From Mesotoga prima MesG1.Ag.4.2 (GTDB lineage Bacteria; Thermotogota; Thermotogae; Petrotogales; Kosmotogaceae), in the NCBI RefSeq assembly GCF_000147715.2, contig NC_017934.1, positions 1,798,001 to 1,862,000 of the forward strand: a DNA stretch of 64,000 nucleotides. Reading direction: 5' to 3'. Shown here in pieces: positions 1 to 36,237 of this stretch. The notes beneath the pieces are model-generated. The model was not told where the DNA came from. It saw only the letters and a program-made list of their open reading frames with translations, and made no database searches. Position 1 is the first letter of the stretch, and every line of letters starts with the position of its first letter. Both the position numbers and the translations under genes were made by a program.

Positions 1-869
1 CTATCATGGTTCCGTTCGTGACCACATACGGTGATGTCGACAGAGGGAAGCCGCTTGCGAGATATTCCGACGATCATGTTCTTCTTGCGATCAACTATGG
101 CAATTTTGCGAAGACTTATGGACTGGAAGTTGGAAGTCCCGTCTATATGGGTCTAGTCGAGAAGGGGGCTTACAAGGATGAGCTGGAGATAAGACATCTT
201 GTGAGAAGCGACGTAAGGGAAGATTACGCGAGCGATGAGATTTTCGCGAACTTCAGAGAGATTACCCTCGGAGATATTGCTCCAGGTAAGCTTTACAGAT
301 GCTCCCATCCCTCGATAGACGATCCCAGGGCTCCGTACGCATCGGCTCTTATCGAGCAGGCCGGTATCAAGACTGTCATCAATCTCTCCGACTCGGATGA
401 AGAGCTCGCATCAAATCTTGAATACTCGGAGTACTACAAGTCCATCAGCGAGGCCGGCAACCTAATCAATTTGAATATGGGTGTCGATCCTCTCGCAGAC
501 GACTTTGCGAAGAAGCTCGGAGAAGGCCTTAGATTCATGATAGCTCACGAGCCTCCGTACCTGATTCACTGTGTCGAAGGCAAGGATAGGGCCGGAATCG
601 CATCTGCTCTGCTTGGCGCAATCATGAACGCCAAGACCGACGAGATCTATGCCGATTATGTCAAGTCTTACGAGAACTACTATAATGTAGTACCGGGAAC
701 CGCAGCTTACGAAGCAGTAAGAAAGATCATCGTTGATCTCTTCGTTATAATGAACGACGGCAATCCCGTCGACGATCTCAACGTGAAGAGCGTTGCTTTA
801 GACTACCTGACGAAGAAGGCCGGTCTCTCTTACACCGAGATCGCTGCAATTCAGGATATTCTTAGATAG
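1..869 (+). CDS. Tyrosine-phosphatase-like protein with a SAM-hydroxide-adenosyltransferase-like N-terminal segment (5' partial)
   Basis: The reading frame is open to the left edge, so the first visible ATG at 6 need not be the start. The C-terminal ~200 residues carry the protein tyrosine/serine phosphatase signature: an HCVEGKDRAG P-loop, which fits CX5R, followed by helices typical of the Y_phosphatase3 group. The first ~75 residues contain a stretch (LLAINYGNFAKTYGL) that resembles the C-terminal beta-barrel domain of SAM-dependent hydroxide adenosyltransferases, where NYGN-like motifs line the adenosine site. A fusion of these two folds is therefore likely, but most of the N-terminal domain would lie outside the window. 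No signal peptide can be judged. The gene ends in a strong hairpin terminator at 894-914. Phosphatase assignment is firm; the N-terminal domain is inference. Confidence 0.72.
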   Translation, partial: IMVPFVTTYGDVDRGKPLARYSDDHVLLAINYGNFAKTYGLEVGSPVYMGLVEKGAYKDELEIRHLVRSDVREDYASDEIFANFREITLGDIAPGKLYRCSHPSIDDPRAPYASALIEQAGIKTVINLSDSDEELASNLEYSEYYKSISEAGNLINLNMGVDPLADDFAKKLGEGLRFMIAHEPPYLIHCVEGKDRAGIASALLGAIMNAKTDEIYADYVKSYENYYNVVPGTAAYEAVRKIIVDLFVIMNDGNPVDDLNVKSVALDYLTKKAGLSYTEIAAIQDILR

Positions 870-2837: not shown

Positions 2838-3944
2838 ATGCAGAGAGTATCGGATGATTTTGGAAAAAATCTGAGTGTTTCAGCCTCGGCGGCTATGGAG
2901 TACGAGTCTCAGGGAGAGAAGATGCTAAAGAGGGTTAACGAGCTTATGGCGGCGAGAGAGGACATTTCTGAACTTCTCGGTATGAATCCGCTATACATAA
3001 TGTATGACAACAACTCGAATCATCTCCAATTCATCTCAAACGTCATTAAGCTGAACGACTACGATCTCCTGGCGAAGTCTCTACCCTGGGTATATAAGAC
3101 TTACACCTCGAGGGATTTCTCTGTCGAATTCTTTCCTGAAGTCTTGAAGGCCTGGATGAAGGCGATAGATGAGTTTCTAACTCCGGAAAGCGCCGCTCAG
3201 GTAATCGAAGTATATCTTGAAATGTTGGATTCACATAATGCGGCTGTAGAACATGCTCAGGAGGGTCTGATCCAGATGAAGGTTGACGAGGACTGGAAGG
3301 CTATCGAGAGGCAAACCGTCTTAGCCCTGCTCACAGGCGATTATAAAAAGCTTAGAGAGATTGCTAACCGTGAAATCAATAGCGAAAAATTGCTCGCCGA
3401 TTTCTATTTGAAGGTAGTTCAGCCTGCAATGTACGAGATAGGTTACCTATGGCAGACCGGTGAGATATCCATTGCCGAGGAACATCTCGCGACTTCTCTT
3501 ATGAATAGGCTTATGGCAAGCACATACAGCATGATCGAGACCGTACCTTCGCACCCCAGAAGAAAGGCCGTTGTGCTCAGTTCGCAGAACGAATACCACG
3601 AGCTTGGAGCAAGGATACTTGCCGACCTTCTTGAACTGAGCGGCTGGAATGTCAGCTATCTCGGAGCAAATACACCGGTGTCCGAAGTGCTCAAGCATCT
3701 GAAGAAGAATCTTCCTTTTTTGCTGGCGATCTCCGTTACGATGTCCTTCAATCTCGATCTCACGAAAAAGCTAATTCAGTCCGTTCACAATGATAGTGAC
3801 TTCAAAACAATGAGGATCATGGTCGGAGGTCTGGTAATCAACGAATCAGAGGATCTCTGGAAGAGACTGGGTGCCGATGGAACTGCCGAATCGGCCGATG
3901 AGGCTATCGAGCTTGCCAAACAATGGTGGAAAGAGCGTGAATGA
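2838..3944 (+). CDS. Cobalamin-binding sensor protein, CarH-like photoreceptor/B12 module without a DNA-binding domain
   Basis: This 368-aa cytoplasmic protein ends in a B12-binding helical cap (about 160-235) plus a Rossmann B12-binding domain (about 242-368). The cap contains W205-X9-E215-H216, the exact Wx9EH spacing that contacts adenosylcobalamin in CarH-type light sensors. The Rossmann part has E252-Y-H254-E-L-G257, a close version of DXHXXG, whose histidine is the lower axial ligand. GANTPVSEVLK and MVGGLVINES match the later core of the fold. The first ~150 residues are helical and do not look like the MerR-type DNA-binding domain of CarH. The stop overlaps the start of a diguanylate cyclase gene by 8 bp, so the sensor probably controls c-di-GMP synthesis. 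Whether light, B12 or redox is sensed is inference. Confidence 0.78.
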   Translation: MQRVSDDFGKNLSVSASAAMEYESQGEKMLKRVNELMAAREDISELLGMNPLYIMYDNNSNHLQFISNVIKLNDYDLLAKSLPWVYKTYTSRDFSVEFFPEVLKAWMKAIDEFLTPESAAQVIEVYLEMLDSHNAAVEHAQEGLIQMKVDEDWKAIERQTVLALLTGDYKKLREIANREINSEKLLADFYLKVVQPAMYEIGYLWQTGEISIAEEHLATSLMNRLMASTYSMIETVPSHPRRKAVVLSSQNEYHELGARILADLLELSGWNVSYLGANTPVSEVLKHLKKNLPFLLAISVTMSFNLDLTKKLIQSVHNDSDFKTMRIMVGGLVINESEDLWKRLGADGTAESADEAIELAKQWWKERE

Positions 3945-4872
3945 GCTAAGAGAGGCTATCCTTTCGAATAAAGATGATTTCTTTTCCGCTCTCGAGAATC
4001 TATCTGGAGCAATCCTTATTCTCTTTGACAACGAAGGCAAGATCCTTGATCACAGCCCCTCTCTGATTTCTTTGGTGGAGAAAAGTGATACTCTCAAAGG
4101 CGAGAATATTTGCAATCTTGTTGTGGACAATTCCCAAGCACTATTGAAGAGATTTGGAGCGAAGCCTGTAAGAATCGGTCTTAGCGATTCAAGATCGAAC
4201 ATTCATCTAGTGAGCGGATTTGTCATGCTTGTCGACGAGTCAAGGAGGCTGTTTCTAGGCGTGAAGATTGGCCTTTCGGCCGGAGACATTATGGAGAGCA
4301 TGTCGAAGGTTACGGATGAGCTCGCATCGCTTACGAGAGAGCTAGCGCGTAAGAACAAAGAGCTTCAGGCTGCAAATAAAGAGATAGAAAGGCTGATGAA
4401 CTGCGACCCGCTGACTGGATTGTCGAACAGACGTGAATTCATGAACAGGCTAGATAAAGAGATAGAGAGCTTATGCTCGACCTGCAAGCCTCTTTCCATA
4501 ATAATGGCAGACATAGACGACTTCAAGAGAGTCAACGATACTAGAGGCCACCCCGAAGGCGACAGAGTTCTACAGCTGTTCGCTGATGTTCTAAACGAAA
4601 TAATCTCACCAAGACGGACTACCGTGAGATACGGTGGCGAGGAATTCATTGTAATGCTTCCCGAAACGACATCAGAAGAGGCTACCGAGATCGCAGAAGA
4701 GGTTCGGAAGAACTTCGAGAGAGAGACTGAGAAAAAGCTCGGATTGACAGTCACGGCCAGCTTCGGGGTCGCCACATTTAAGCCTTCAGACACGAAGTCA
4801 AGCATACTAAAACGTGTCGACGACGCTCTTTATAGTGCAAAATCCGGTGGAAAAAACAGAGTGGTGCGTTGA
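3937..4872 (+). CDS. Diguanylate cyclase with N-terminal PAS-like domain
   Basis: The likely start is GTG at 3937, inside the end of the upstream gene and after GGTGGAAAG; in-frame ATGs further upstream lie deep in the sensor gene. The ~311-aa product has a PAS-like segment (about 20-125; LILFDNEGKILDHSPSLI), a coiled-coil helix (about 135-170) and a GGDEF domain (about 170-311). The active-site loop reads RYGGEEF and the entry motif DPLTGLSNRREF is intact, so it should make c-di-GMP from two GTP. The RxxD product-inhibition site is not visible at the usual place (RRTT instead), so it may not be feedback-inhibited. Translational coupling to the B12 sensor implies a two-protein signalling module. 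Confidence 0.85.
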   Translation: MNELREAILSNKDDFFSALENLSGAILILFDNEGKILDHSPSLISLVEKSDTLKGENICNLVVDNSQALLKRFGAKPVRIGLSDSRSNIHLVSGFVMLVDESRRLFLGVKIGLSAGDIMESMSKVTDELASLTRELARKNKELQAANKEIERLMNCDPLTGLSNRREFMNRLDKEIESLCSTCKPLSIIMADIDDFKRVNDTRGHPEGDRVLQLFADVLNEIISPRRTTVRYGGEEFIVMLPETTSEEATEIAEEVRKNFERETEKKLGLTVTASFGVATFKPSDTKSSILKRVDDALYSAKSGGKNRVVR

Positions 4873-5637
4873 AAGCGGGCATATCTGCTGAAGAAGGCCA
4901 GTTCCCATTGAAACAAGACGCAAGGCGCCGAAAAACATCGGCGGACGCAATGCCGACTCCATTGAGAAGTGATTCTGGGAAGAGCATCCCAGGAAGTGAT
5001 GCGCCGAAAGATCCCGGCGGAAGTGATGCCCGGAGGATCATCCGGGGAAGTGAGGCTGCTTCGCAGGAGGGAAAAAAACCAGTCTGCTGCGCAGGCCAGT
5101 CAAAAGGCGAGAATCGTCGCCGCCAGTGAAGGCTTCGCCTTCGCCAGCACCACCTCACGGGAGAAGAACCGCTGAATGCTGCAAATAGCCGTCCTTGGTC
5201 CTTCGCCCGCGCCAAGAAGCACCGGTTCTTCGTTCCGAGGCTGCGCGTCCAGGTTGGAACCAGATCCCGAAACAAGTTCGGGATGACAATGTGAGGGACT
5301 TCCCAAACGCGCTGCCCGAATAACTTTCTCAATTACAGAAAAACCCTGAATCTATGAGCCTTTTCCGTTCGCGGGACTCCATACCTTGTAATCGATACTC
5401 CGTGCTCGGCGTCATGAACTTGTTTCAGCATCTATGTTCTTCTACAATAAATCGAAAAAGAGTCTTGTCGACAGTTTCCATTGCTCTTGATAGAAGGGAA
5501 ACAGAGCCCACGGCGCTTGTTTACTCCTTAAATGCTTCAATTTAGGTAACTTCTCCGATCAAAAAAATTATACTCATGAGCACTATAGTATAATTGTCTT
5601 GAAAAGAATTGTACTTGCGCACAATTTGGAGGGCAAA
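4873..5637 (+). repeat. Repeat-rich intergenic region, including hairpin array A1 (4917-5180) and a REP-like palindrome
   Basis: No gene is supported here. From 4917 to about 5085 lies a chain of separate inverted repeats joined by near-constant 9-nt linkers: GACGCAAGG, then a CGCCG/CGGCG hairpin, GACGCAATG, then after GAAGTGAT a CTGGGA/TCCCAG hairpin, GAAGTGATG, a CGCCG/CGGCG hairpin, GAAGTGATG, a CCCGG/CCGGG hairpin, GAAGTGAG and a short GCTGCTTCGC hairpin. At 5099-5205 follows a block (GGCGA/TCGCC and GAAGGC/GCCTTC hairpins) repeated almost exactly at 6937-7041 and partly at 24370-24445. A TCCCGAAACAAGTTCGGGA palindrome sits at 5265-5283. The stretch to the Fic gene resembles repeat tails at 36700 and 38700. 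Confidence 0.75.
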
Positions 5638-7075: not shown

Positions 7076-8973
7076 GTGTGCCAAGAAGGCGAAGAAGGAA
7101 ACTTCAAGCCATGCTTAATTGAAGATGAGGGAGGGCCCCTCGAAGCCGCCATGCAGGTGGAGGCTTCAAACCACCGTAAGCTGCTGTGGTAAAGAGCCAT
7201 GGTAGTGAACGTTACGGGAAAAGGCGGGACAGTGATCCCGTCAGGTGAGTACCAGAGGAGACGAATACAAGTGAATCACCGTGAACGTGTCGTAACAACT
7301 ACTAGTGTCATCTAAACCGGGAGGTGCAACTATCCCGGGATAAGTCTGGAGGAAACCTGCTTACTGTCCAGATGGTGACCGGCATATAGGTGGCGTGACC
7401 CTGGTACAGGCTTTGATTAGGAACTTGGGAACCTGGATCTGGATGTTAAGGGAAAAGCCGCAAGTGGAAGAACCCACGAGGGTGAAAGTACCGATGCCAG
7501 ATTCAGGGGCGGAACAGTCCGTAGTAGTGATGAAGCTCCTGTAATGGGAGTGGAGCGAAGGGACTGTGTTATCCAGTTTTGTTGGTTAGTCAACCAACTC
7601 TGTGCAGACAACCGAAAGGGAGGAACTGTGAACAGAGACAAGGAAGGAGCCAGCAGACAAGATGAGGTCGTATGAAATCCCCAAGAAAGTAGTACTGGAA
7701 GCATTCAAGAAAGTGAAAGAGAACAGAGGGGCAGAAGGAATAGACGAGGTAAGCCTGGAAGAGTTCGAAGCCGATCTTGACAACAATCTCTACAAGATTT
7801 GGAATCGAATGACCTCGGGCAGTTACTTTCCACCTCCAGTAAAAGCTATAGAGATAGAAAAGAAGAGTGGAGGAAAGAGAGTACTGGGAATCCCCACAGT
7901 GGGGGACAGAGTAGCCCAGATGGTAGCCAAAATCTATCTCAATCCCCTGGTAGATCCATACTTCCATAAGGACTCCTACGGATACAGGGAGGGAAAGTCA
8001 GCGATAGATGCCCTTGAAGTAACGAGGCAGAGATGCTGGCGGTATGACTGGGTACTGGAATTCGACATTAAAGGACTGTTCGACAACATAGACCATGAAC
8101 TACTAATGAGGGCAGTCAAGAAACATGTGAAGATTCCATGGCTAATACTCTACATAGGGAGATGGCTGAAAGCACCCTTTATGCAAGCGAATGGAAGAGT
8201 CGAAGAGAGGAGCAAGGGAACGCCACAGGGAGGAGTAATAAGCCCTGTACTGGCTAACCTCTTCATGCATTACGCCTTCGACAAGTGGATGGAGAGAACT
8301 CATCCGGATAAGCCCTTTGCCAGATACGCAGATGATGGAGTGATACACTGTAGAACTCTGGAGGAAGCCAGGCTTCTTCTTGAAAGTCTCAAAGAAAGAA
8401 TGGAAGAATGCAAACTAAAGCTTCATCCAGAGAAGACCCGTATTGTCTACTGCAAAGACGATAAAAGGAAGGACGAGTATCCAAACACAAGCTTTGACTT
8501 TCTAGGATACACCTTCAGAGTCCGTAGCTGCAAAGACAGAAATGGGAGAATCTTCTACGGCTTCAATCCTGCAGTGAGTGAACAGGCAAAGAAGGCGATG
8601 AGACAGAAGATCCGGAGAATGAGACTTCAAACCAAGTCATACCTGAGTATTGAAGAACTCTCAGAAAGAATCAACCCGGTAATAAGAGGTTGGATAAACT
8701 ACTATGGACACTTTCGCAAATTTGAGATGTATACAGTACTGAGTCGGCTACACAAAGCCTTAGTTCAGTGGGTAAGAAACAAATACAAGAAAAGGAGAGG
8801 TCGTACAAAAGCGGGTAAATGGCTAGAAGCTCTTGCTCGCAGGGAGCCTCATCTATTTGTACACTGGACAATGGGGATATTCTATATGGCTGGATAATGG
8901 GAGCCGGATGAATCGAGAGATTCAAGTCCGGTTCTGAGAGAGCCTGGGGGTGAAATCCCCCTGGGCTACTCAC
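7076..8973 (+). mobile_element. Group II intron, copy 1 of a 1898-bp element
   Basis: The 5' end GTGTGCC matches the GUGYG group II consensus. The 3' end is an intact domain V (8901-8934, starting GAGCCGGATG and ending CCGGTTCTGAG) and domain VI (a CCTGGGGG/CCCCCTGGG stem with a candidate branch-point A near 8968), finishing in CTCAC. Boundaries come from comparing three copies, all exactly 1898 bp, with different flanks. The 5' exon is TTGCAAGTTGCT and the 3' exon CTGTTCCAAGTTGC, a tandem CAAGTTG motif also present at the other two sites. The maturase ORF is inside domain IV. The intron looks functional. Confidence 0.93.
7662..8897 (+). CDS. ltrA: Group II intron reverse transcriptase/maturase (copy 1)
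   Basis: This 411-aa multifunctional protein binds its own intron RNA to help splicing and copies it at the insertion site. The RT domain runs from about 20 to 300, with catalytic D135 (FDIKGLFDNIDH), the QGGVISP box (about 189) and Y222-A-D-D225. The maturase-specific domain (NPVIRGWINYYGHFRKFEMY) follows at about 325-370. No HNH endonuclease domain follows, so priming would use a nascent strand or replication fork. Compared with copies 2 and 3 it differs by about a dozen substitutions (for example GFNPA for SFTPA). GGAAGGAG lies 13 bp before the ATG, a rather long gap. Confidence 0.95.
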   Translation: MRSYEIPKKVVLEAFKKVKENRGAEGIDEVSLEEFEADLDNNLYKIWNRMTSGSYFPPPVKAIEIEKKSGGKRVLGIPTVGDRVAQMVAKIYLNPLVDPYFHKDSYGYREGKSAIDALEVTRQRCWRYDWVLEFDIKGLFDNIDHELLMRAVKKHVKIPWLILYIGRWLKAPFMQANGRVEERSKGTPQGGVISPVLANLFMHYAFDKWMERTHPDKPFARYADDGVIHCRTLEEARLLLESLKERMEECKLKLHPEKTRIVYCKDDKRKDEYPNTSFDFLGYTFRVRSCKDRNGRIFYGFNPAVSEQAKKAMRQKIRRMRLQTKSYLSIEELSERINPVIRGWINYYGHFRKFEMYTVLSRLHKALVQWVRNKYKKRRGRTKAGKWLEALARREPHLFVHWTMGIFYMAG

Positions 8974-9366: not shown

Positions 9367-11264
9367 GTGAGTAGCCCAGGGGGATTTCACCCCCAGGCTC
9401 TCTCAGAACCGGACTTGAACCTCTCGATTCATCCGGCTCCCATTATCCAGCCGTATAGAATATCCCCATTGTCCAGTGTACAAATAGACGAGGCTCCCTG
9501 CGAGCAAGAGTTTCTAGCCATTTACCCGCTTTTGTACGACCTCTCCTTTTCTTGTACTTGTTTCTTACCCACTGAACTAAGGCTTTGTTAAGTTGACTCA
9601 GTACTGTATACATCTCAAATCTGCGAAAGTGTCCATAGTAGTTTATCCAACCTCTTATTACCGGGTTGATTCTTTCTGAGAGTTCTTCAATACTCAGGTA
9701 TGACTTGGTTTGAAGTCTCATTCTCCGGATCTTCTGTCTCATCGCCTTCTTTGCCTGTTCACTCACTGCAGGGGTGAAGCTGTAGAAGATCCTCCCGTTT
9801 CTGGCTTTGCAGCTACGGACTCTGGAGGTGTATCCTAGAAAGTCAAAGCTTGTATTTGGATACTCGCCCTTCCTTTTATCGTCTTTGCAGTAGACAATAC
9901 GGGTCTTCTCTGGATGAAGCTCTAGTTTGCATTCTTCCAGTCTTTCTTTGAGACTTTCAAGAAGAAGCCTGGCTTCCTCCAGAGTTCTACAGTGTATCAC
10001 TCCATCATCTGCGTATCTGGCAAAGGGCTTATCCGGATGAGTTCTCTCCATCCACTTGTCGAAGGCGTAATGCATGAAGAGGTTAGCCAGTACAGGGCTT
10101 ATTACTCCTCCCTGTGGCGTTCCCTTGCTCCTCTCTTCGACTCTTCCATTCGCTTGCATAAAGGGTGCTTTCAGCCATCTCCCTATGTAGAGTATTAGCC
10201 ATGGAATCTTCACATGTTTCTTGACTGCCCTCATTAGTAGTTCATGGTCTATGTTGTCGAACAGTCCTTTAATGTCGAATTCCAGTACCCAGTCATACCG
10301 CCAGCATCTCTGCCTCGTTACTTCAAGGGCATCTATCGCTGACTTTCCCTCCCTGTATCCGTAGGAGTCCTTATGGAAGTATGGATCTACCAGGGGATTG
10401 AGATAGATTTTGGCTACCATCTGGGCTACTCTGTCCCCCACTGTGGGGATTCCCAGTACTCTCTTTCCTCCACTCTTCTTTTCTATCTCTATAGCTTTTA
10501 CTGGAGGTGGAAAGTAACTGCCCGAGGTCATTCGATTCCAAATCTTGTAGAGATTGTTGTCAAGATCGGCTTCGAACTCTTCCAGGCTTACCTCGTCTAT
10601 TCCTTCTGCCCCTCTGTTCTCTTTCACTTTCTTGAATGCTTCCAGTACTACTTTCTTGGGGATTTCATACGACCTCATCTTGTCTGCTGGCTCCTTCCTT
10701 GTCTCTGTTCACAGTTCCTCCCTTTCGGTTGTCTGCACAGAGTTGGTTGACTAACCAACAAAACTGGATAACACAGTCCCTTCGCTCCACTCCCATTACA
10801 GGAGCTTCATCACTACTACGGACTGTTCCGCCCCTGAATCTGGCATCGGTACTTTCACCCTCGTGGGTTCTTCCACTTGCGGCTTTTCCCTTAACATCCA
10901 GATCCAGGTTCCCAAGTTCCTAATCAAAGCCTGTACCAGGGTCACGCCACCTATATGCCGGTCACCATCTGGACAGTAAGCAGGTTTCCTCCAGACTTAT
11001 CCCGGGATAGTTGCACCTCCCGGTTTAGATGACACTAGTAGTTGTTACGACACGTTCACGGTGGTTCACTTGTATTCGTCTCCTCTGGTACTCACCTGAC
11101 GGGATCACTGTCCCGCCTTTTCCCGTAACGTTCACTACCATGGCTCTTTACCACAGCAGCTTACGGTGGTTTGAAGCCTCCACCTGCATGGCGGCTTCGA
11201 GGGGCCCTCCCTCATCTTCAATTAAGCATGGCTTGAAGTTTCCTTCTTCGCCTTCTTGGCACAC
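9367..11264 (-). mobile_element. Group II intron, copy 2 (inverted relative to copy 1)
   Basis: The same 1898-bp element on the minus strand: 5' GTGTG at 11264 and 3' CTCAC at 9367. Domain V carries one change relative to copies 1 and 3 (GGTTC for GATTC), which turns an A-U pair into a G-U wobble and so preserves the stem. The 5' exon reads TTGCAAGATGCA and the 3' exon CAGTTCCAAGTTG. It faces copy 1 head-out with only 393 bp between them, forming a near-2-kb inverted repeat. Confidence 0.93.
9443..10678 (-). CDS. ltrA: Group II intron reverse transcriptase/maturase (copy 2)
   Basis: The 411-aa protein is full length with the same D135, QGGVISP, Y222ADD and maturase-domain features as copy 1. 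It shares with copy 3 the variants KGEYPN, YSFTPA, HFRRFEMY, SQLNKALVQ and FYTAG, and has private changes (KERLEECKLELHP, GYTSRV). The two minus-strand copies are therefore more closely related to each other than to copy 1. Confidence 0.95.
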   Translation of the reverse strand: MRSYEIPKKVVLEAFKKVKENRGAEGIDEVSLEEFEADLDNNLYKIWNRMTSGSYFPPPVKAIEIEKKSGGKRVLGIPTVGDRVAQMVAKIYLNPLVDPYFHKDSYGYREGKSAIDALEVTRQRCWRYDWVLEFDIKGLFDNIDHELLMRAVKKHVKIPWLILYIGRWLKAPFMQANGRVEERSKGTPQGGVISPVLANLFMHYAFDKWMERTHPDKPFARYADDGVIHCRTLEEARLLLESLKERLEECKLELHPEKTRIVYCKDDKRKGEYPNTSFDFLGYTSRVRSCKARNGRIFYSFTPAVSEQAKKAMRQKIRRMRLQTKSYLSIEELSERINPVIRGWINYYGHFRRFEMYTVLSQLNKALVQWVRNKYKKRRGRTKAGKWLETLARREPRLFVHWTMGIFYTAG

Positions 11265-34671: not shown

Positions 34672-36237
34672 TCAAGAGCCTTTCTGAAATTCGACTCTGT
34701 TCTTTCCTTTGCCTTTCGCTGCGTATAACAGGTGGTCGGTCTTTTGAATGAAATGAGTCGCATCTTCGCCTGACCAGCTGGAGACACCAGCGCTCATCGT
34801 CACCTTAGGATATGTGGTCTTGGCCAGCTCATCCCGGAGACGATCTGCGGTAGAACTTGCCATTTGCAAATCGCTTGAGGGCAAAAGAACAAGAAATTCC
34901 TCGCCACCATACCTGAAAACGAAGTCAACCTTTCTTAGAGAAGACCTGATTATGCCCGCCACATTCTTGAGAAGGATGTCCCCCTGCAGGTGACCATAAG
35001 TATCGTTGACGTTTTTGAAGTTGTCAAGATCTATCATGATCATGGATAGAGGAGTCCCGTATCTTGTGGCTCTATTTATCTCTCTTTCTATTATGGGGTA
35101 CATCTTCTTCTGGTTGAGGAGGCCGGTCAATGGATCTATCTCGGCCTGTTTCTCGAGTAGCTCATTTGCCTTCTTGAGTTTGCTGTCGATTTCGAGAAGT
35201 TCTTCATATTGCTTTTCGATAGTTGTCTTTGCTTCCTGAAGTTCTAAGTTCTGATTGCTCAGTAACTGTATTTCGTGCATCTTCTGCTGAAATCTGAATG
35301 AAGCCGCCAGCTCAGCGGCCCTGGCACTGCAGGTTTCCTTGTAAGTTCTTTGGGACAAGAGGTCAAGTTCCCTGTACGTTTCGAGAGCCAGCCCCTCTTC
35401 TCCAAGCTCTTCATGAATCTTAATCTTATTTCTTAGTGCGCCAGGCACTTTCGACATGCTTCCAGACTCTTTCTGATACTCTATATAACTTTCGATTTTT
35501 TCCAGAGCCTTTGCATAGTTGCCAGTTCCCATGTAGTACTGAGCCTTAAGAAAATCGAATTCAGCAGACCCTGCAGGATCTTCGATTTCTTTGACTAGAG
35601 GTTCGGTTTTCTTGAAGATCGCGGGAACTTCGTCATACCTTTCCGCGCTGATCAGCACTTCGGAGAGATTGAAGTAGCTGTTGCAGAGATCTGCTTTCTT
35701 TCGTAGAGAGAGCTTTATTTCTATCGCCTTGTTCAAGCAATCCATGGCTTCTTCAAATCTTTCCAGACCTTTCAGTGCGACGGCTTTATTGTTCTGAAAG
35801 TTAGCTACTGCGAGATCATCACCTATTGCTCTAGCGTATTCTAGAGCCTTGTCGGTGTACTCGAGAGATTCTTCAAAACGCTCCATGTAGACATATACGC
35901 CACCAATGTTTCCAATCACGTCGTTGACATCGTCGGCCGTTCCGAACTCCTTGAAAAGGTCAACTGCCTTCAATGCATACTCGATAGATGCATCATAATT
36001 GCCCACAACGCATGAGTACTTAATCATGTTATGCGTAATGTTTGCCAGCTCGATACATGCCGGGGCTTCAATTCTAGAAAGCTCGGCTTTAACAGTCTCC
36101 GATGCGAGAAGAGGCTTGCCCTCTTTGAACATAGTCTGAGAAAGCTCATTCAAAATTTTGAGCTTTTGCCGGAAATCCTTATCGGGGACTTCTGAATAGG
36201 CTTTCATAATCTCTTTGATCGATCTCTTCTCGGTCAT
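34672..36237 (-). CDS. TPR-repeat diguanylate cyclase
   Basis: The start is ATG 36237, with GGAGG five bases before it; an ATG three bases earlier touches the Shine-Dalgarno too closely. The ~521-aa cytoplasmic protein has about seven tetratricopeptide repeats (about 30-320, for example DVNDVIGNIGGVYVYMERFEESLEYTDKALEYA), a coiled coil (about 330-365) and a C-terminal GGDEF domain with RYGGEEF. The inhibitory site is present (RKVD five residues before GGEEF), so c-di-GMP should feed back, unlike the cyclase at 3937. TPRs probably receive the signal through a protein partner. It is a single gene next to a long repeat-filled spacer. Confidence 0.92.
   Translation of the reverse strand: MTEKRSIKEIMKAYSEVPDKDFRQKLKILNELSQTMFKEGKPLLASETVKAELSRIEAPACIELANITHNMIKYSCVVGNYDASIEYALKAVDLFKEFGTADDVNDVIGNIGGVYVYMERFEESLEYTDKALEYARAIGDDLAVANFQNNKAVALKGLERFEEAMDCLNKAIEIKLSLRKKADLCNSYFNLSEVLISAERYDEVPAIFKKTEPLVKEIEDPAGSAEFDFLKAQYYMGTGNYAKALEKIESYIEYQKESGSMSKVPGALRNKIKIHEELGEEGLALETYRELDLLSQRTYKETCSARAAELAASFRFQQKMHEIQLLSNQNLELQEAKTTIEKQYEELLEIDSKLKKANELLEKQAEIDPLTGLLNQKKMYPIIEREINRATRYGTPLSMIMIDLDNFKNVNDTYGHLQGDILLKNVAGIIRSSLRKVDFVFRYGGEEFLVLLPSSDLQMASSTADRLRDELAKTTYPKVTMSAGVSSWSGEDATHFIQKTDHLLYAAKGKGKNRVEFQKGS

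Follow-up and report, generated by a model that had tools for sequence, protein, structure and literature searches.

Two overlapping genes of Mesotoga prima MesG1.Ag.4.2 appear to encode a c-di-GMP switch that responds to light and is divided between two proteins, in which photolysis of adenosylcobalamin (AdoCbl) in the first product would switch the diguanylate cyclase encoded by the second in trans; we assign this reading a probability of about 0.6. The window, a stretch of 64,000 nucleotides (G000:C1:1798001-1862000), belongs to a genome of 2.98 Mb on two contigs. As judged from sequence and model comparisons, the sensor is photocobilin-like; its domains stand in the opposite order to those of the solved photocobilins, and its enzyme is encoded by a separate gene. 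The features of the pair are listed below by window position.

2838-3944, + strand: sensor gene, photoglobin plus cobalamin-binding domain (CBD), 368 aa (ORF, Pfam matches, AlphaFold model with mean pLDDT 88.3)
2883-3263, + strand: predicted all-helical photoglobin, about residues 16-142 (profile match of alignments A5 and A7; helices in model)
3009-3011, + strand: Asn58, at the place of the bilin-holding Asp270 of the photocobilin SasPcob (gapless alignment; 18/18 A5 rows)
3087-3089, + strand: Trp84, at the place of SasPcob Trp296 (gapless alignment; invariant in A5 and A6)
3312-3518, + strand: B12-binding_2 four-helix bundle, residues 159-227 (PF02607, E 1.6e-15, passes the cut-off)
3450-3485, + strand: W205-x9-E215-H216 adenosyl-binding motif (sequence, conservation in relatives)
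3564-3908, + strand: B12-binding Rossmann domain, residues 243-357 (PF02310, E 1.4e-17, passes the cut-off)
3597-3599, + strand: lower-ligand His254 of the Rossmann domain (E252-Y-H254-E-L-G257 motif, alignment)
3937-3944, + strand: overlap of sensor stop and cyclase start, 8 nt, GTGAATGA (identical in G012, G009, G008 and G006)
3937-4872, + strand: diguanylate cyclase gene, 311 aa, with PAS-like, coiled-coil and GGDEF regions (PF00990, E 6.6e-43; model; Foldseek)
3994-4272, + strand: PAS-like presumed receiver, about residues 20-112 (beta/alpha order in model; hhalign to kinases of the split class)
4279-4404, + strand: coiled-coil linker helix, residues 115-156, 42 residues (model)
4633-4647, + strand: GGEEF active-site motif, no RxxD upstream (sequence, alignment)

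Domain composition of the sensor

The C-terminal half of the sensor carries G202-x2-W205, E215-H216, E252-x-H254-x2-G257 and G276-x3-P280, at positions that in CarH and photocobilins serve to bind cobalt and the adenosyl group (PMC11796333, PMC10979010). The W-x9-EH motif, which the sequence-only reading had picked out, is present and is not a chance motif, since both Pfam cut-offs are passed and G-x2-W-x9-EH is kept in 39 of 40 surveyed CBD-matching ORFs from relatives of several phyla (two genomes being listed twice, and the sole exception being a broken C-terminal fragment in genome G015). Light-responsive CBDs are marked by a signature of GxxW, EH, GxxH and GxxxP (PMC11796333). The sensor has three of these four elements of the SignatureFinder signature (GxxW, EH and GxxxP); the strict signature fails, with the Gly of GxxH replaced (N251-x2-H254). 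Binding of AdoCbl by the sensor is very likely. The two other CBDs of the same genome lack G-x2-W-x9-EH, one being a corrinoid protein with DLHDIG and the other having W-x13-EH. The locus C1:2130495-2131076 (L003), beside an aldo/keto reductase, encodes a cobalamin-binding paralogue that carries W-x13-EH and ExHEIG; similar proteins were also found in other genomes of the genus.

The nearest structures to residues 151-368 of the AlphaFold model were photocobilins (VIA-align Z of 26.3, 26.2 and 25.8), whereas other CBDs scored 23.4 (CtMerR) and below, with CarH at 19.9. The best sequence matches of the sensor were likewise photocobilins, and the NCBIfam CarH model gave 59 bits, below its cut-off of 400. 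The sensor had earlier been described as CarH-like; its fold is indeed the CarH-type AdoCbl photosensory fold, but its nearest relatives are photocobilins and not CarH (Z 26 versus 20). The Pfam scan of the sensor found no DNA-binding domain, and hence no MerR domain, as that reading had stated; residues 1-148 hold a globin instead. Directly after Trp205 stands Gln206, and an equivalent of CarH His132 is absent. Since His132 makes the bis-His light state of CarH and SasPcob has Gln at this place (PMC11796333), that state would not be available to the sensor, as in SasPcob.

The CarH-like description had left the N-terminal half unexplained, and neither Pfam nor NCBIfam gave a match in residues 1-148. 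Stand-alone genes of the same domain, of about 140-165 aa, were found in Bacteroidota and Muiribacteriota, the one from Alkaliflexus being 34% identical to the sensor N-terminus over 132 positions. Alignment A5 (18 rows) combined 5 N-termini of the genus with 13 stand-alone relatives, and alignment A7 held 14 N-termini of other fused sensors, with the window sequence excluded. The A7 profile matched allophycocyanin (E 3.6e-11) and the photocobilins 8J2X (1.4e-6) and 8J2Y (1.4e-5), and its HMM found the window sensor at E 6.1e-6 among 1015 ORFs. Comparison of A5 with A7 by hhalign scored 62.7 (E 1.1e-9), whereas 100 column-shuffled controls reached no more than 22.0 and the reversed control 11.6. 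Because the A5-A7 match lies far above the shuffled controls and A7 in turn matches allophycocyanin and photocobilins, the N-terminal domain is, by profile comparison, a photoglobin (a phycobiliprotein-like globin) fused to the CBD. The link is made only through the profile of fused photoglobins: a direct search with A5 found no significant match among solved structures (best E 0.11, with a phycocyanin at 1.4), and matches in the whole-model structure comparison cover only the CBD half, so that the globin assignment rests on profiles. A CarH lacking its DNA-binding domain was ruled out as a description of the protein, the N-terminal half being a photoglobin.

Photoglobins, as reportedly treated by Schneider et al. 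in 2022, are said to be non-heme globins associated with B12-binding and signalling domains. They have been placed beside phycobiliproteins and other bilin-binding globins (PMC10151467). Invariant columns of A5 include Asp57, Asn58, Asn61, Phe65, Trp84, Val85 and Tyr89, and a D-N-x2-N-H motif is strongly conserved in photoglobin alignments A5 and A6. In SasPcob, Trp296 touches both corrin and bilin and Asp270 holds the bilin (PMC10979010); the correspondence of residue numbers was worked out from the matches and that paper. Of these two photocobilin traits, the globin Trp contacting the corrin is present as Trp84, and the bilin-holding Asp is absent, its place being taken by Asn58. This Asp is not universal among photocobilins, AbPcob having His (PMC10979010).

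Searches for heme oxygenase (PF01126) found none in the 38 genomes of the order, and those for ferrochelatase (PF00762) none in the window's own genome; both searches matched in control genomes. Cobalamin adenosyltransferase (PF01923) is encoded by the own genome, and 31 of the 38 genomes have it. The organism can make AdoCbl, and probably does not make biliverdin. Taken together, Asn at the bilin Asp place and the missing heme oxygenase and ferrochelatase suggest that the sensor globin probably binds no biliverdin. These same observations, with Asn in every A5 row, count against a receptor with two ligands, whose globin would bind a bilin, or another linear tetrapyrrole acquired from the surroundings, and which would integrate red and green light like SasPcob. 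We consider such a receptor improbable, even with the strongly conserved D-N-x2-N-H motif and Trp84 of the photoglobin and with AbPcob still binding some biliverdin despite its His (PMC10979010).

The gene pair and its cyclase

The cyclase reading frame is open from 3871, with the GTG at 3937 as the start that agrees in phase with the overlap. The overlap of sensor stop and cyclase start reported from the sequence alone was confirmed at 8 nt, and the same overlap occurs in all five genus members that carry the pair. The translational coupling proposed along with it may follow from this overlap; the gene order is reversed in G074. The gene upstream of the sensor (1535-2347) lies on the opposite strand and the next large same-strand gene downstream of the cyclase begins only at 5599, so the pair looks like a unit of its own. 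A promoter consensus scan of the stretch returned 6 promoter-like sites against 3.2 expected, and we give it no weight as evidence. Elsewhere in the window, two near-identical group II intron reverse transcriptase/maturases of 411 aa stand opposed at 7662-8897 (+) and 9443-10678 (-). A tyrosine phosphatase gene at 6-869 (+), whose first 46 residues match the C-terminal domain of SAM hydroxide adenosyltransferase, begins at the window edge and may belong to a longer fusion.

The GGDEF domain of the cyclase has an intact GG[DE]EF motif in the form GGEEF. In the model, the region before the coiled coil shows strands and helices in PAS order, and Foldseek ranked PAS-GGDEF-EAL and phytochrome-cyclase structures highest. 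The RxxD feedback site is absent from its canonical place (SPRRTTVRYGGEEF), as had been noted for this cyclase, and is also absent in the four genus members aligned. It is not missing from the system as a whole, since two of the nine partner cyclases aligned (L036 and L006) have it; the loss therefore appears local. The own genome has 18 GGDEF matches, and a PilZ search of it found none. Two other GGDEF genes, at C1:1832696-1833145 (window about 34696-35145, -) and C1:1908999-1909448, have identical scores and ORF lengths (563 aa) and are probably a recent duplication.

The full sensor was found in 6 of the 38 genomes of the order, namely 5 of 10 genus genomes and G015 of the sister genus, and in 9 of 103 Thermotogota genomes (E 1e-25), which adds G066, G074 and G076. 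Frame changes and a stop interrupt the G015 gene in its assembly, and it was read in pieces; the G076 sensor was included in the count even though A7 did not recover its globin half (E 3.7). In all nine, the immediate neighbour of the sensor is a same-strand GGDEF gene, and a pair conserved in relatives, whose absence was to have spoken against the proposal, is thus in evidence. The flanking DNA shared between G012 and the window extends over 4.9 kb. In G006, G009 and G008 only the pair aligns to the window and not the flanks, which suggests that the pair stays together while its surroundings change; these genomes are 65-71% identical at the DNA level, and blastn could miss diverged flanks. 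Relative to G012, dN/dS is 0.085 for the sensor and 0.089 for the cyclase, indicating purifying selection. The pair is dispensable, being absent from 5 of the 10 genus genomes, three of which are at least 98% complete. That sensor and cyclase form a functional pair is highly probable. At locus L061, an EAL-like gene (read from sequence), a sensor gene and a GGDEF gene stand in a row on one strand, placing genes for making and breaking c-di-GMP beside one sensor.

Effectors beside related sensors

Outside Thermotogota, 27 loci were counted (L006-L010 and L083-L104), after L105 and L106, which repeat L006 and L009, and L013 and L015, which repeat L004 and L005, had been dropped. A signalling effector lies beside the sensor in 22 of them, comprising 21 HisKA kinases and one GGDEF protein. 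None was found beside the sensor in L100, L102 and L103, and the contig-edge loci L009 and L104 were counted as misses. HATPase_c was detected at 20 of the 21 kinase loci, the remaining one presumably being L084, which is cut by a contig end. The globin is fused to the CBD at 12 of the 27 loci, encoded by a separate gene at 13 and was not found at 2. In Bacteroidota (L007, L008, L083-L099 and L101), the sensor, whether fused or split, adjoins a histidine kinase. The counts cover matches passing the survey thresholds, which were E 1e-30 in one survey (21 of 247 genomes, all 21 examined, one being that of L007) and E 1e-40 in the other (3 of 293 genomes, all 3 examined, one being that of L006). 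At L102, the end of a fused photoglobin-CBD ORF lies 4 nt from an ORF on the same strand that, as read from sequence, resembles DNA photolyase. The motif-bearing stand-alone CBD at L039 (G028) has no globin and no effector nearby, and adjoins a PAP2-like gene.

Profile comparison of the effector N-termini, in which Pfam recognises at most a weak PAS domain, linked part of the two effector classes. The PAS-like region of the cyclases of the genus, G015 and Motiliproteus scored 48.9 by hhalign against the N-termini of 14 kinases beside stand-alone CBDs (shuffled maximum 14.8 of 60 controls). The same region scored 14.5 against kinases beside fused sensors and 18.0 against the N-termini of other Thermotogota cyclases, with a shuffled maximum of 18.2 in each case, and the kinases of the fused-sensor class matched those of the split class at 38.5 (shuffled maximum 16.7). 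A receiver common to all partner effectors was therefore ruled out, as fused-sensor kinases and the other Thermotogota cyclases do not rise above shuffled controls. A common receiver is supported for part of the family, linking the kinases of split-globin loci with the cyclases of the genus, G015 and Motiliproteus, where general PAS kinship could also account for the match. A tree of 35 CBDs did not resolve the placement of the sensor relative to split and fused forms; its starred branches force at least four label changes for pairing with a cyclase.

Signal, proposed mechanism and known systems

DNA photolyase (PF00875) is present in the own genome and in 16 of the 38 genomes of the order overall; of the 6 among these 38 that carry the sensor, 5 have photolyase, and G008 has the sensor without it. 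Light sensing had been called unexpected in an anaerobe, and the photolyase of the own genome makes it less so. As a sign of light exposure photolyase is only suggestive, since it follows kinship. The organism presumably lives anaerobically in dark habitats, which counts in favour of a sensor of B12 supply, one that would report the availability of AdoCbl (holo versus apo) rather than light and tune the cyclase by it. The own genome, with its cobalamin adenosyltransferase and two other CBD proteins, fits such a sensor too, and AdoCbl binding alone lowers the activity of the photocobilin-cyclase AbDPcob relative to the apo form (PMC10979010). Against it stand the E-H/W adenosyl pocket of photoreceptor type, kept in relatives of several phyla, and the photolyases of the own genome and beside the relative in L102; we regard it as rather unlikely.

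In darkness, AdoCbl withstands oxygen. This counts against a redox or oxygen sensor, in which cobalamin chemistry would report oxygen to the anaerobe and switch the cyclase, and the sequence holds no pointer to oxygen sensing. We judge this explanation very improbable, although sensing oxygen would be useful to an anaerobe and cobalamin sensors can respond to it, as shown by CarH, whose light-driven monomerisation is effective only with oxygen (PMC11796333). Crystals of CtMerR lose the adenosyl group under anaerobic illumination (PMC11796333), so a lack of oxygen is no bar to the photochemistry.

Light is probably the natural signal, and we infer AdoCbl binding, its photochemistry, the sensor-cyclase contact and the sign of the response. 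In the proposed pathway, AdoCbl would be held between the helical bundle (W205 and E215-H216) and the Rossmann domain, with His254 as lower ligand, and the photoglobin would pack over the corrin edge as in photocobilins. Cleavage of the Co-C bond by light would release the adenosyl group, shifting the E-H helix and changing the dimer contact. The changed sensor would then relay the signal by touching the PAS-like domain of the cyclase, from which it would travel through the coiled coil to the GGEEF domain and alter c-di-GMP output. With its globin pocket degenerate for biliverdin, the protein would sense by B12 (green light) alone. In analogy to AbDPcob, which when loaded with AdoCbl shows inhibition of its cyclase in the dark and a more than 10-fold activation on illumination (PMC10979010), light should raise c-di-GMP. 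Stand-alone photocobilins also change cyclase activity in trans when mixed, and signs of response differ, SasPcob without biliverdin departing from the others (PMC10979010). More tentatively, the protein may be a bilin-free photocobilin of an anaerobe, its globin acting as a structural relay or a holder of another ligand, AdoCbl alone reading light without oxygen, and the PAS-like receiver plugging the sensor into cyclases or kinases across phyla.

A precedent exists for such a sensor acting on a cyclase, light control having already been shown for AbDPcob (PMC10979010), a photocobilin-diguanylate cyclase of Acidimicrobiaceae (8J2Y). Like the window pair, AbDPcob controls a GGDEF domain through a CarH-type CBD and photoglobin and lacks the bilin Asp, with His where the window sensor has Asn. 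It differs in being one polypeptide with the globin after the CBD, whereas the window has overlapping separate genes, the globin before the CBD, and a cyclase with its own PAS and coiled coil. SasPcob, from Saccharothrix (8J2W/8J2X), is likewise a stand-alone sensor and the nearest solved CBD (Z 26.3), shares the Gln after Trp (no bis-His state) and keeps the Trp at position 296; its globin is C-terminal and binds biliverdin via Asp270. It acts on a cyclase in trans in vitro (PMC10979010). CarH/LitR of Thermus shares the CBD fold, W-x9-EH and lower His, while the window sensor lacks the MerR domain and the His132 equivalent and has a globin. The photoglobin/CBD/histidine kinase loci of Bacteroidota share the sensor modules, an adjacent effector and, in the split class, a related kinase PAS; their output is a histidine kinase and their globin is often a separate gene.

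To our knowledge, SasPcob has no known cognate cyclase gene. Photocobilins and the photocobilin-cyclase fusion are published, and CBDs at either end are mentioned (PMC10979010). The main text of the two photocobilin papers makes no mention of Mesotoga, Thermotogota, Bacteroidota or histidine kinases, and no paper naming the sensor-cyclase pair came up among the literature searched. We file the pair as a new form of photocobilin, globin-first and split from its cognate PAS-cyclase, whose bilin pocket has changed and whose output is exchangeable; its host is presumably an anaerobe. As a natural two-gene photocobilin-cyclase switch, it would allow target finding by stand-alone photocobilins to be tested with a cognate pair. 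Kinases and cyclases are exchanged downstream of related PAS domains, which suggests that the receiver is modular and could serve in optogenetics. If the proposed reading is true, Thermotogota would have B12-based light sensing that works without oxygen and without biliverdin.
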